Assembly (NCBI GenBank): GCA_021202925.1
Contig: JAJQCD010000034.1
Coordinates: 54,146-118,145, forward strand
Reading direction: 5' to 3'
DNA: 64,000 nucleotides
Source of the DNA: Clostridiales bacterium
GTDB taxonomy: Bacteria; Bacillota; Clostridia; Lachnospirales; Lachnospiraceae
The position numbers and the translations under genes are program-made. Shown piece after piece: positions 27,699-39,461 of the stretch (positions are counted from its first letter, which is position 1; each line of letters opens with the position of its first letter). The notes under the pieces are model-generated. The model did no database searches, was not told the DNA's origin, and saw only the letters and a program-made list of their open reading frames with translations.

Positions 27699-27778
27699 CA
27701 TCCCCCAGCCTGACCCTCCGACATTTTTTAGTATATATCCACGACATGGAAGGATACTTTCACCCCAAACCTCTCACG

Positions 27779-27812
27779 GAACCGTACGTGATACTCTCGC
27801 ATCATACGGCTC
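27779..27812 (-). mobile_element. group II intron domain V remnant
   Basis: The minus strand reads as a 34-nt hairpin opening with GAGCCGTATGAT, a GCGAGAGT loop region and closing with ATCACGTACGGTTC. It has the length, the conserved AGC triad and the GAGCCGT...ACGGTTC arms of a group II intron domain V. The following CGTGAGAGGTTTGGGGTG looks like the start of domain VI. No reverse transcriptase or 5' intron part is found, so this is a 3' remnant. Confidence 0.7.
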
Positions 27813-27975
27813 TTGTCATCATTTCACTGGCATGTAGCCAACTTTCCAGTGATAAAACATCTCCGGATTTCACATTGCTATACAATGCTGCAAATGCTGC
27901 GCCTTTGTCAAAGATCTTTTTACCGATTTCCGATTTCACATTCATGGGAGCGCCGCAGAGCGGGCAGCGTGGAAT
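27813..27975 (-). pseudogene. SIR2-family fragment
   Basis: An open stretch on the minus strand encodes SNLIPRCPLCGAPMNV, the zinc-ribbon half of a class M sirtuin, closely matching the intact gene at 36.3 kb (SDLVPYCPICGAPMNV). Upstream the frame is closed by a stop and downstream the similarity ends within 20 residues. About 50 further residues are open but unrecognised before the intron remnant. It is debris between the MATE and HxlR genes and accounts for most of this 405-bp gap. Confidence 0.6.
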
Positions 27976-35406: not shown

Positions 35407-36333
35407 TCAGAACAGACTCATCTGCCGGTCAATCCAGCTGACCTGCTTCGCTTCGTGGATCTGGTCATCCGGATGCCCCTCTCCGATCAGGAACGGGGAC
35501 TCCGGATTATGTAGCTTCATGTTTGGGCGCGCCGCCGCTGCATTTACATTGGCATAACAATAACGGCACAGGTGCCCGCAGGTATCGTATGCTCCTATAT
35601 CATTTCCCAGATAACAGGCGCATTCACTGCGGGCTGATTTCCGTCTGGGTGCGTCCAGCCTGCAGTGCAGAGCAGTTTCAAAAGTTTCAATCGTCATGCA
35701 GCCGGAGCAGTCGATTCCATAAGGAGCCAGGTCATTTCCTTCCGCACAGGCTTTGACTGTCATGCCATATCTGCGGCCGATCTCAGCAAACGCTTTTCCG
35801 ATTTCCACCCGTTCTGCAAAGCGAACCGGCCTTGCCTGCGGAAAGTTGCGTTCAACCTTTTTATAAATATCAATGAAGCTGATAACGCAGGTCTTTGTAT
35901 ATCCGGACAGGTATGCTGCCATCTTTTCAAAATCAGAGATATGCTGCTCCACAGGATAAACATCCGAAACCAGGATCGGGTCATACCGCCAGCCCACAGA
36001 ATCAACGCCGACCATACCTGAAAGTTTTCGGAAATAATCCATCACAGTTCCTTTCTCAGGGACATTTGTCTCTATATCTTTCCCGTATGGTGTGATCGTG
36101 ACAAACCAGTACTGGCCGTAGGGCGCAAGCAGATCCATGTATGGAAACATCGGCGCGGGATTTTTGGTGCAGAAACCGATCAGATCAACGACATCCGGAG
36201 ACAGCATGTAGCGAGTCACAGAGACAGGATTATATGGGTTCCTCACGCACACAAAACCAGCTCGAAGCCGGTTTGCAAACCATCTGGAATAAAATGCCGG
36301 AATATCCGTCCGAAGCCCTGTCTGTAAAATCAT
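35407..36333 (-). CDS. DUF1848 protein with C-terminal CX3CX2C
   Basis: A 308-residue protein of DUF1848. The body has features of a TIM-barrel-like radical-SAM relative (FCTKNPAPMFPYMD, YGQYWFVTITPYGKDIE, GWRYDPILVSDVY). Unusually, the cysteines are near the C-terminus: CSGCM, CACYLG and CGHLCRYCYAN, the last being CX3CX2C. It begins 15 bp after the sirtuin stop and is probably the last gene of the riboswitch-led operon. The reaction is unknown. Confidence 0.8.
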   Translation of the reverse strand: MILQTGLRTDIPAFYSRWFANRLRAGFVCVRNPYNPVSVTRYMLSPDVVDLIGFCTKNPAPMFPYMDLLAPYGQYWFVTITPYGKDIETNVPEKGTVMDYFRKLSGMVGVDSVGWRYDPILVSDVYPVEQHISDFEKMAAYLSGYTKTCVISFIDIYKKVERNFPQARPVRFAERVEIGKAFAEIGRRYGMTVKACAEGNDLAPYGIDCSGCMTIETFETALHCRLDAPRRKSARSECACYLGNDIGAYDTCGHLCRYCYANVNAAAARPNMKLHNPESPFLIGEGHPDDQIHEAKQVSWIDRQMSLF

Positions 36334-36348
36334 ATACCTGTCACCTTC

Positions 36349-37269
36349 TTACAGTTCTTTTATCTGTTTTACCACAGATCCGATATCCCCATCAATACAG
36401 ATTGATTGATTTTTTATCTCACACGGGCACATAGCTTCCCCTTTGTTGACACAGGCATATACGGCCTTCGGATTCTTTGCTGTCATCCGCCAGAACGGAT
36501 ACTTGATAATCACAGGGGTATTTGCGCCTACTCCCAGTTCCAGAAACAGAATGTGCAGATTCTCATGCCGACGGATAAAATCATTGTATCGTTCCGCTGC
36601 CTTATGCCATCCATCATCCTCGACAAAAGTATCATCGCAGCGCAGATTTACATTCATGGGAGCGCCGCATATCGGACAGTACGGAACTAAATCTGACGGA
36701 ATTGTCATTTTAGGAGCCGTGTTGTCGGACAGCCTGAAATCACCGGTTTTCGTTATCTGATATCCCTGCGATTCAACCATCTGCCGGACAGCTTCTTCAT
36801 TATCGTAAGTCCTGTCATGACAGGGTTTGGAACATTGCCACAGCCCGTAATCACCCTGCGTATAGAACAGCCGCTTTTTGTCAAACCCGGCAAGCTGAAA
36901 CTGATGATCCACGTTGGTGGTCAGTACAAAATAATCTTTGTCCTTTACCAGTTCCAACAGGTCAATGTATGGCTTGCCAATGCCCGCTTCGTAGCGGTTG
37001 ACCAGAATATGCCGTGACCACCATGCCCAGTATTCCTCAAATGTGTCAAACGGATAAAACCCGCCGGAATACATATCAGTGATGCCGTATTTTCTGTGAA
37101 AATCTGAAAAGTATTTTTCAAACCGTTCCCCACTGTAACTCATGCCAGCCGAAGTGGAAAGCCCTGCGCCGGCACCGATGACAATGGCGTCTGCCGCCTC
37201 AATTTCATTTTCCAACTGTAATAATTGATCCGGCACTTTCGTTTGGGTGGAGAATGCTTTGCTTACCAT
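36349..37269 (-). CDS. class M sirtuin (SirTM-like)
   Basis: The ATG at 37269 is chosen because it follows the macrodomain stop by one base (TGAAATG, translational coupling); the open frame extends 17 codons into the macrodomain gene. The 306-residue product has the NAD-binding GAGAGLSTSAGMSYSGERF, the TTNVDHQFQLAGF segment and a zinc ribbon with CPICGAPM. SirTM enzymes act as ADP-ribosyltransferases paired with a macrodomain hydrolase, usually beside GcvH-L and LplA2. Those two are absent in this window. Here the partner upstream is a PNPOx-ferredoxin. Confidence 0.85.
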   Translation of the reverse strand: MVSKAFSTQTKVPDQLLQLENEIEAADAIVIGAGAGLSTSAGMSYSGERFEKYFSDFHRKYGITDMYSGGFYPFDTFEEYWAWWSRHILVNRYEAGIGKPYIDLLELVKDKDYFVLTTNVDHQFQLAGFDKKRLFYTQGDYGLWQCSKPCHDRTYDNEEAVRQMVESQGYQITKTGDFRLSDNTAPKMTIPSDLVPYCPICGAPMNVNLRCDDTFVEDDGWHKAAERYNDFIRRHENLHILFLELGVGANTPVIIKYPFWRMTAKNPKAVYACVNKGEAMCPCEIKNQSICIDGDIGSVVKQIKEL

Positions 37270-37270
37270 T

Positions 37271-38044
37271 TCACCGAAGGATATCCCGGTAGATTTGTAA
37301 GTCGATGTCTTTGAAAACATTGAAGATCACCTCGATTTCGCTGTTGGTCTGTTCTTTATAATCCTTTACCGTACTGACGGCAACCTGTGCTGCCTTGTCA
37401 TTGGGAAAGTGAAATTCCCCGGTAGAGATGCAGCAGAACGCAACACTTTTGATGTTATTCTGGTCTGCCAGCTCCAGGCAGGAACGATAGCAGGAAGCAA
37501 GCAGCTCCTTATCTTTTCTGGTAAGCCAACCACTGACGATGGGACCGACGGTATGCAGTATGCAGTCACAGGGCAGATTGAATGCCGGAGTAATTTTTGC
37601 CCTGCCGATTTCCTCCTCATGCCCCTGCTTTTCCATCAGATCCGCGCAGGCGGCGCGAAGCTGAACACCTGCGTAGGTATGAATGGCGTTATCAATACAG
37701 CCGTGATTTGGGCAGAAGCAGCCCAGCATCTGAGAGTTGGCTGCGTTGACAATCGCTCTGCAGCGAAGTGTGGTGATGTCTCCTTGCCAAAGATAAATCC
37801 CCTCCTGCATCGGCGTCAGGTCTGCAAAATCCGTAATGCCTTTGCGCCGGGTTTCTTCCTACAAATAAGCGTCCTGTACTTCCAGAAACTGACCACTGAC
37901 CGGCTTCGGCATCCGCACATTGAACAGCGCCCGCAGGAGTCGTTTCTGCTGCTGTTTGTCAGATGGAATTTCCATATCCCGATATTGTGTTTCCTCCGAA
38001 AGAAGTGCCCTGATTAAATAAATTCTTCGCTCATCCTGTGTCAT
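37271..38044 (-). pseudogene. SirTM-linked macrodomain gene with in-frame amber codon
   Basis: Reading from the ATG at 38044, 61 codons (MTQDERRIYLIRALLSEETQ, FLEVQDAYL) match the N-terminal extension of the SirTM-linked ADP-ribose hydrolase. A TAG at 37859-37861 follows. The same frame then continues EETRRKGITDFADLTPMQEGIYLWQGDI through the whole macrodomain (NAANSQMLGCFCPNHGCIDN, GVQLRAACADLM) to 37271. A single C-to-T change (CAG to TAG) explains it. Options are a recent null allele, a sequencing error, suppression, or reinitiation at Met 37810. The zinc-type CFCPNHGCIDN loop is intact. Confidence 0.85.
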
Positions 38045-38046
38045 GG

Positions 38047-38655
38047 TTATCCTCTCTTTTCGATGGTCTGTTTCGGGCAGATTTCCGCGCAGCGACCGCA
38101 GTGCAGGCAGCGGCTCTGGTCAATAACCACTGGCTTTACAGAAATATCAATGCACTTCTGGGGACAGACAGAGTAGCACAGCTTGCAGCCAATGCAGGCG
38201 CTGCCCACGAAGTAGCCGCTCATTACGGATTCCGGCTGACCGATCACAATGCTGTCTCTCGTCACATGGGAGGGGTCGCTGATGTCGAAGTATTCCCCGC
38301 TGGCCTCATACAACCAAAACACCTCCAGAGCGCTGCGGGTGTCGCCGGGATAGATCTTCTGCATATATGGATTCTTTTCAAAAATCTCATCCAGTTTTTC
38401 GCTGCCGATGTTCTGAATCCTTCCCCGCAGCGAAACAGACTTTTTATCCTTGGTTGCGGACAGAGCAATATATTTCTGTTCCATCAGCTGGCTGTAAAAG
38501 GCTTTGCCTTTTGCCGTCAGGAAGTACACGCCTTTTTCGTCCCACAGCATCATATCAATCGTGCGGGTCTGGGGATGACCGTCTGCGCCGATGGTGGCGA
38601 CGGTAGTGGAATGAATGTCCTCCACCAGCATTTTCAGATAATCCAGATTTGTCAT
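38047..38655 (-). CDS. PNPOx-like flavoprotein fused to a two-[4Fe-4S] ferredoxin
   Basis: A 202-residue protein. Residues 1-135 form a pyridoxamine-phosphate-oxidase-like FMN barrel (TTVATIGADGHPQTRTIDMML). Residues 145-200 form a ferredoxin with CIGCKLCYSVCPQKCI and CLHCGRCAEICP. It is probably an FMN/Fe-S redox carrier or sensor in the cytoplasm. It is first in the operon, two bases before the macrodomain start. An FMN riboswitch and an SD-sequestering hairpin precede it. Confidence 0.88.
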   Translation of the reverse strand: MTNLDYLKMLVEDIHSTTVATIGADGHPQTRTIDMMLWDEKGVYFLTAKGKAFYSQLMEQKYIALSATKDKKSVSLRGRIQNIGSEKLDEIFEKNPYMQKIYPGDTRSALEVFWLYEASGEYFDISDPSHVTRDSIVIGQPESVMSGYFVGSACIGCKLCYSVCPQKCIDISVKPVVIDQSRCLHCGRCAEICPKQTIEKRG

Positions 38656-38660
38656 GATTT

Positions 38661-38685
38661 CTTTCCTCCCTCCGGGATAGGAAAG
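38661..38685 (-). promoter_or_regulatory. hairpin sequestering the ribosome binding site
   Basis: On the minus strand CTTTCC and CCC pair with GGG and GGAAAG, folding the Shine-Dalgarno GGAGGGAGG into the stem just before the ATG at 38655. It lies directly downstream of the FMN aptamer, so it is the likely expression platform for translational control. Confidence 0.6.
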
Positions 38686-38719
38686 CCCGACGATACAATA
38701 ACTTCAATCATCTGGCTTC

Positions 38720-38840
38720 CTGCTATCCTCTTTTATCCGGACTTTACCGTCGGTACTGGAATTGCACCAGCTCATGCCTTTCAGCTTGCGGACTATACCG
38801 CCGGTGGGGAATTGCACCCTCTCCACTCCGTTCCTACCCG
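38720..38840 (-). ncRNA. FMN riboswitch (RFN element)
   Basis: The minus strand carries the RFN blocks in order: AGGGTGCAATTCCCCACCGG, CGGTATAGTCCGCAAGC, GAGCTGGTGCAATTCCAG, ACCGACGGTAAAGTCCGGAT and AAAGAGGAT. These match the conserved FMN aptamer core (GGGTG-AATTCCC-ACCGGCGGT, GGTG-AATTCC-CCGAC-GT-AGTCCGGAT). RFN elements normally control riboflavin synthesis or uptake. Here it precedes a PNPOx-ferredoxin and sirtuin operon. Confidence 0.9.
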
Positions 38841-38861
38841 CAGGGCATGCTGTGCAGGTAG

Positions 38862-38897
38862 GCGCCTGACAGGTGCCACCGGCACCTGTCAGACGCC
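38862..38897. terminator. strong hairpin between PNPOx gene and riboswitch
   Basis: A stem of about 17 bp built on CCTGACAGGTGCC and GGCACCTGTCAG, with one mismatch near the base. It lies between the 38.9-kb PNPOx gene and the FMN riboswitch on the same strand, a logical place for termination. No T-run follows, so the function is tentative. Confidence 0.5.
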
Positions 38898-38928
38898 CTC
38901 AAAGATTGTGTTATGAAATTCGTTTCGC

Positions 38929-39324
38929 TTAGAATTCGTAGGGCGGATTGCCGGAGAAATCAGCAATCAGGCCATGCGCATTCTCCAGATAGAACACCTC
39001 GAAAATCGGGTTGTCAGCAGTCTGATACTGACCCTTCACGATGGGATTCTGGATGCACATTTCTTTGGCAGCCATATTGTTCTCAAAAACAGCCTTGCCA
39101 TGCAGACGAATCCATGCATATTCCGGGCTGGAAACAGAAATCTCGATCTCCGGATTCTCCTGCATGTCCTTGTAGACATCCTTGGTATTATTGGTGCAAA
39201 ACCACAGCTTGCCGTCCAGTTCGCCGGCGAACATAAACGGACGACACTTTGCCTTTCCGTCACGGCCGACAGTAGCCAGGTACTGAACAGGATTTGCGTT
39301 TAAAAATTCGATGACTTTCTTCAT
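38929..39324 (-). CDS. PNPOx family protein
   Basis: The ATG at 39324 behind GGAGGTAATCATC is used; the longer open frame is in the upstream region. The 131-residue product is a single FMN-binding split barrel (VIEFLNANPVQYLATVGRDGKAKCRPFMFAGELDGKLWFCTNN in outline), common in gut Clostridia. It is divergent from a broken hxlR copy whose operator-like region (GCACAA-TT-TTGTGC at about 39410-39423) lies between them. Confidence 0.87.
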   Translation of the reverse strand: MKKVIEFLNANPVQYLATVGRDGKAKCRPFMFAGELDGKLWFCTNNTKDVYKDMQENPEIEISVSSPEYAWIRLHGKAVFENNMAAKEMCIQNPIVKGQYQTADNPIFEVFYLENAHGLIADFSGNPPYEF

Positions 39325-39461
39325 GATGATTACCTCCAATTTTGATTCCCTGTATGGGTTTTTCTTTACTGGTTTTATCGTATCAGTATTTTTGTGACCT
39401 GTGAAGTACGCACAATTTTGTGCCATAGTTACTCGAAAGAAACTATAGGAGGTGCATACCA

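Follow-up and report, generated by a model that had tools for sequence, protein, structure and literature searches.

Regulon surveys report that FMN riboswitches (RFN elements, RF00050) control riboflavin synthesis and transport genes (PMC3766115); a vitamin B6 synthase operon is among the few unusual targets described (PMC4418817). In a 64,000-nt stretch of a Lachnospiraceae genome (contig JAJQCD010000034.1; hereafter the window), an FMN aptamer lies in the leader of a gene for a PNPOx-ferredoxin fusion protein (PNPOx-Fd), and genes of an ADP-ribosylation module follow. How did the aptamer come to stand ahead of these genes, and does it still place them under FMN control? We consider it probable that this RNA is an orphaned FMN riboswitch, derived from a PNPOx-RFN-ribU-PNPOx-Fd-macrodomain-SirTM locus and interrupted in J1/2, in which FMN control is weak or lost. 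The genes around the leader are as follows:

38929 to 39327, minus strand: upstream single-domain PNPOx gene (PF01243, 6.3e-12), the same neighbor as in most RFN loci
38047 to 38655, minus strand: PNPOx-ferredoxin fusion, 202 aa (PF01243 and 4Fe-4S domains)
37859 to 38044, minus strand: N-terminal part of the Zn-macrodomain gene, with an in-frame TAG at 37861-37859 (relatives are open here, with a sense codon)
37271 to 37810, minus strand: Zn-type macrodomain (protein-ADP-ribose hydrolase) without its N-terminal bundle (NF003163, 1e-89; 5KIV residues 91-267, 4.2e-65)
36349 to 37320 (start approximate), minus strand: class M sirtuin (SirTM) with a YTQG motif (5A3A, 2.4e-70)
35407 to 36333, minus strand: DUF1848 protein (PF08902, 4.3e-96)

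These matches agree with the string of genes proposed in the initial annotation (i.e., PNPOx-ferredoxin, macrodomain, class M sirtuin, and DUF1848). The first gene of the string, PNPOx-Fd, begins <80 nt past the aptamer and has a good Shine-Dalgarno (SD) sequence.

An FMN aptamer interrupted in J1/2

The leader contains the following elements:

38901 to 38906, minus strand: P1 5' strand AUCUUU, pairing at 6 of 6 positions with 38730-38725; outside the interval first reported
38895 to 38900, minus strand: J1/2 remnant GAGGGC (compare GGGGCA/GAGGCA in intact aptamers)
38821 to 38894, minus strand: 74-nt insert in J1/2, two hairpins
38731 to 38820, minus strand: FMN aptamer body, P2-P6 (RF00050, 74.9 bits)
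38725 to 38730, minus strand: P1 3' strand GAGGAU, pairing with AUCUUU
38675 to 38728, minus strand: hairpin A of the platform (-22.9 kcal/mol), with the SD sequence outside it; homologous to the terminator hairpin of locus L082 and to a remnant in L006/L085
38661 to 38685, minus strand: alternative hairpin B, over the SD sequence (CTTTCCTatCCCggaGGGAGGAAAG; -11.2 kcal/mol alone); absent from the minimum-energy fold
38665 to 38669, minus strand: SD sequence GGAGG, read from the sequence; PNPOx-Fd ATG at 38655

A cmscan search of the whole window matched RF00050 on the minus strand at 38824-38731 with 74.9 bits (E 3.9e-15), above the gathering score of 66.2 bits, which bears out the earlier identification of an RFN aptamer. 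P2, P3, P5, P6, and the invariant core columns are undamaged, and the conserved P2-P6 core nucleotides are present. The alignment spans model positions 12-128 only; the window RFN is genuine but, as matched, incomplete. Two further RFNs in the same genome (L001 and L002) align over the full model, with 113.8 and 113.2 bits. Riboflavin supply thus has switches of its own, since riboflavin synthesis open reading frames (ORFs) (L121) and an ECF S component gene (L122) are located near these two.

The aptamer had been taken to lie whole within 38661-38840. Its P1 5' strand is located outside that interval, at 38906-38901, beyond the 74-nt insert; two of the six P1 pairs are G-U. This strand lies 22 nt past the stop codon of the upstream PNPOx gene, where the CTTCGGGG motif likewise occurs in intact relatives. 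A total loss of P1 was rejected, because the 5' strand is present upstream of the insert. On the minus strand, the region upstream of P2 consists of AACACAATCTTTGAGGGC, the insert, and AGGGTGCAATTCCCC, and the insert itself is predicted to fold with -43.9 kcal/mol (fold of 38894-38822). The window RNA shares with RF00050 riboswitches the aptamer core, the strand, the position in a 5' leader, and a P1 that overlaps the platform hairpin. It differs from them in its first gene, which is PNPOx-Fd in place of a riboflavin gene (ribU in relatives, lost here), and in the 74 nt that part P1 and J1/2 from P2, where a P1 with a short J1/2 would close the six-way junction. In FMN riboswitches, G11 of J1/2 contacts the FMN phosphate and G12 belongs to a triple (PMC3764141); the insert therefore adjoins the FMN-binding site. 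Both nucleotides appear to be retained in the window copy, and folding suggests that the insert can fold on itself and that P1 can close beyond it. The RNA is thus a member of the FMN riboswitches by descent, but it is structurally interrupted.

Folding of the expression platform

The initial annotation described a hairpin that hides the SD sequence. Such a switch can be drawn, because formation of hairpin A precludes that of hairpin B and the outer stem of hairpin A (38728-38723) is overlapped by P1, which is a textbook layout. FMN would stabilize P1, break hairpin A, and free CTTTCCTATCC for hairpin B over the SD sequence, so that a working translational riboswitch with an extra J1/2 domain would directly control the PNPOx-Fd and SirTM operon. 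The intact core and the P1 strands, which remain complementary across the insert, are consistent with such control. Nevertheless, we regard it as unlikely. The insert occupies a ligand-contacting junction, and the stronger hairpin A (38728-38675) leaves the SD sequence outside it, whereas the proposed hairpin (38685-38661) is not part of the minimum-energy fold. The calculated energies of the leader, which ignore FMN and tertiary contacts, are -109.8 kcal/mol for the minimum, -102.2 kcal/mol with P1 enforced, and -97.9 kcal/mol for a holo-like fold with hairpin B, which is 11.9 kcal/mol above the minimum. Enforcing P1 costs 7.6 kcal/mol here, compared with 0 to 3.0 kcal/mol in four intact ribU leaders and 4.6 and 5.4 kcal/mol in two leaders with ribU remnants, a contrast that is only suggestive.

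Homologous platforms also argue against translational control, as those of L082 and of the ribU relatives are terminators and not SD hairpins. In L082, a strong terminator hairpin is followed by CTTTTCC, and the ribU leaders contain classical terminators. The window platform aligns to that of L082 with a score of 62 (shuffle maximum, 27) and to that of L006 with a score of 69 (shuffle maximum, 24); L006 and L085 carry this platform remnant without an aptamer. A terminator scan of the window found no U-rich intrinsic terminator, and hairpin A has no U-tract. Together, the insert and the loss of the U-tract suggest that FMN control is probably weak or lost, and the interruption in J1/2, along with a broken downstream gene (see below), makes working control doubtful, although some residual control could act through hairpin B. 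Set against this, the core shows no damage outside P1-J1/2 and all six P1 pairs can still form, which points either to recent damage or to continuing selection on the RNA.

ribU in related loci

A search with the PNPOx-Fd protein retrieved 80 loci from genome contigs and more from genomes of the family and order. In many of these relatives, an ORF of approximately 200 aa lies between the RFN and PNPOx-Fd. It encodes an ECF S component (PF12822, 2e-33), and its best match among solved structures is a riboflavin uptake protein (3P5N, E 1.2e-35), which identifies it as RibU, and the gene order is PNPOx-RFN-ribU-PNPOx-Fd-macrodomain-SirTM. For loci with 900 nt or more of upstream sequence (some of them redundant between collections), ribU was scored by tblastn: 20 of the 26 RFN loci carry a full ribU and 3 a partial one. 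The other three are the window, L061 (in which the ribU C terminus remains), and L099 (with half an aptamer). Among the relatives compared, no intact aptamer directly precedes PNPOx-Fd unless a remnant of ribU is present, which further disfavors a working switch. A riboflavin gene thus stands between the aptamer and the PNPOx-Fd ORF in relatives, a finding that the initial annotation had itself named as refuting its reading. A target unrelated to riboflavin uptake, as originally proposed, is a secondary state; the surprise of this target is explained by the loss of ribU.

Decay of this region is recurrent. Tails of ribU without an RFN occur in L018, L020, L028, and L038; the RFN is reduced to half an aptamer in L082, is degenerate in L053, L099, and L088, and has left only its platform in L006/L085. 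On the PNPOx-Fd tree, the presence of ribU changes at least 14 times by parsimony; the tree is unrooted and cannot alone separate gain from loss, but the remnants do. Because ribU and RFN remnants persist in several loci, the losses are repeated. Upstream of PNPOx-Fd, graded states of RFN/ribU decay can be seen in L006, L053, L061, L071, L082, L088, L093, and L099. In many other relatives (L004, L007-L009, L013, and others), a gene for an NADPH-dependent FMN-reductase-like flavodoxin replaces the PNPOx/RFN/ribU region.

These relatives also bear on the idea that ribU was never present here and that the RFN was captured independently ahead of PNPOx-Fd. No ribU sequence was detected by tblastn between the aptamer and PNPOx-Fd in the window, as such a capture would predict; however, the flanking order is the same as in the relatives and many intermediate loci keep ribU tails, and we consider the idea improbable.

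The ancestral arrangement, with ribU deleted here, is the same as that of Firmicutes RFN-ribU units such as ribU1 and ribU2 of Clostridium scindens, each of which has an annotated RFN and is upregulated in low riboflavin (PMC12934955, a 2026 preprint). A C. scindens PNPOx gene, known as a "ydaJ" homologue, is highly correlated with ribU1/2 and also rises in low riboflavin (PMC12934955). By analogy, this response fits an operon reading, although the gene is not equated with PNPOx-Fd.

For the orphaned riboswitch favored here, the following course can be proposed. In intact relatives, FMN binding would form P1, let the terminator form, and shut off ribU along with the genes that follow. Here, ribU has been deleted, which brings the aptamer and platform up against PNPOx-Fd; a small palindromic element has entered J1/2 and parted P1 from P2 beside the FMN-binding junction; and the U-tract of the terminator hairpin is gone. 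PNPOx-Fd, SirTM, and DUF1848 would then probably be expressed with little dependence on flavin.

As to the origin of the insert, a search with the whole leader matched 163 of 392 genomes of the order; among the matches listed, all but one start at query position 109 or later (109 being the first base past the insert) and stop before the platform. This genome contains two copies of the core palindrome of the insert (AGGTGCCNGTGGCACCTGT), whereas a sample of 195 other genomes of the order contains none; a stretch of 27 to 28 nt of the insert is repeated at C26 of this genome. In the RFN of L012, from a related metagenome-assembled genome, a similar palindrome occupies the same junction; the two inserts are modestly similar (pairwise score, 38; shuffle maximum, 32). 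With two copies here, one in L012, and none in the 195 genomes, a common REP or MITE element of the order is unsupported. In L016 (4088-4286) and L012 (1527-1650), a GC-rich palindromic insert expands the P4 region of the RFN, giving a second example of a repeat that has entered the aptamer.

Variants of the FMN riboswitch with altered ligands have reportedly been described (Atilho et al. in 2019), and the shared junction in L012 would suit an insert adapted to alter ligand or dynamics (e.g., for sensing another flavin), but this is very improbable given that the L012 aptamer has lost its 3' half, that the second palindrome copy of this genome is located within an AAA-ATPase-like gene, as would be expected of a mobile repeat, and that the ligand-contacting core shows no change outside J1/2.

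The SirTM/Zn-macrodomain operon and flavin

The sirtuin encoded downstream is homologous to SpySirTM and reads QG, within YTQG, in place of HG. The macrodomain gene adjoins that of SirTM, and the TAG splits off its N-terminal three-alpha bundle; the simplest reading, given the sense codon in relatives, is a nonsense mutation. Deleting this bundle abolished zinc coordination in the Staphylococcus aureus macrodomain protein (PMC11490716). As relatives are open at this site, this genome may encode a broken ADP-ribosylation eraser alongside SirTM. The operon resembles known SirTM/Zn-macrodomain operons (PMC4518038, PMC11490716) in its adjacent genes, with the SirTM homologous to 5A3A and the Zn-macrodomain to 5KIV. 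It differs from them in that GcvH-L and LplA2 are absent and PNPOx-Fd and DUF1848 take their place, in the truncation of the macrodomain, and in the link of its relatives to riboflavin uptake. DUF1848 is also linked to SirTM in L004, L014, L057, and L113. The DUF1848 protein of the window (35407-36333, minus strand) contains a cysteine cluster, CGHLCRYCY, similar to a radical SAM motif. Elsewhere in the window, 27746-27814 (minus strand) matches a group II intron domain (RF00029, 46.9 bits).

Of the 59 loci with 2.5 kb or more of downstream sequence, 46 carry both SirTM and the macrodomain behind PNPOx-Fd. The proposal that FMN level is tied to an ADP-ribosylation module thus holds for the family, as the gene order of ribU operons, whereas working control by the window copy is doubtful. 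As gene order, the pattern is real: SirTM/Zn-macrodomain pairs in gut Clostridia repeatedly lie behind an FMN riboswitch-ribU unit, and we found no prior description of it; the literature searched contained no paper that combines FMN riboswitches with SirTM. The targets and triggers of such pairs outside GcvH-L operons are unknown (PMC11490716).

Locally, the main lesson concerns the decay of riboswitches: an aptamer has outlived its own target gene, and relatives show graded intermediates. Such a series in one gene neighborhood offers a natural experiment on how riboswitches are lost. The wider FMN/SirTM pattern matters more. We tentatively suggest, as a possibility raised by genome organization, that SirTM/Zn-macrodomain modules of gut Clostridia belong to the FMN riboswitch regulon through RFN-ribU-PNPOx-Fd-macrodomain-SirTM operons. 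If so, riboflavin import would increase under flavin starvation, and a flavo-ferredoxin protein and a protein-modifying sirtuin would rise with it. The placement of SirTM behind an FMN riboswitch and an importer gene would thereby give it a testable trigger (flavin limitation) and, in PNPOx-Fd, a candidate partner or target.
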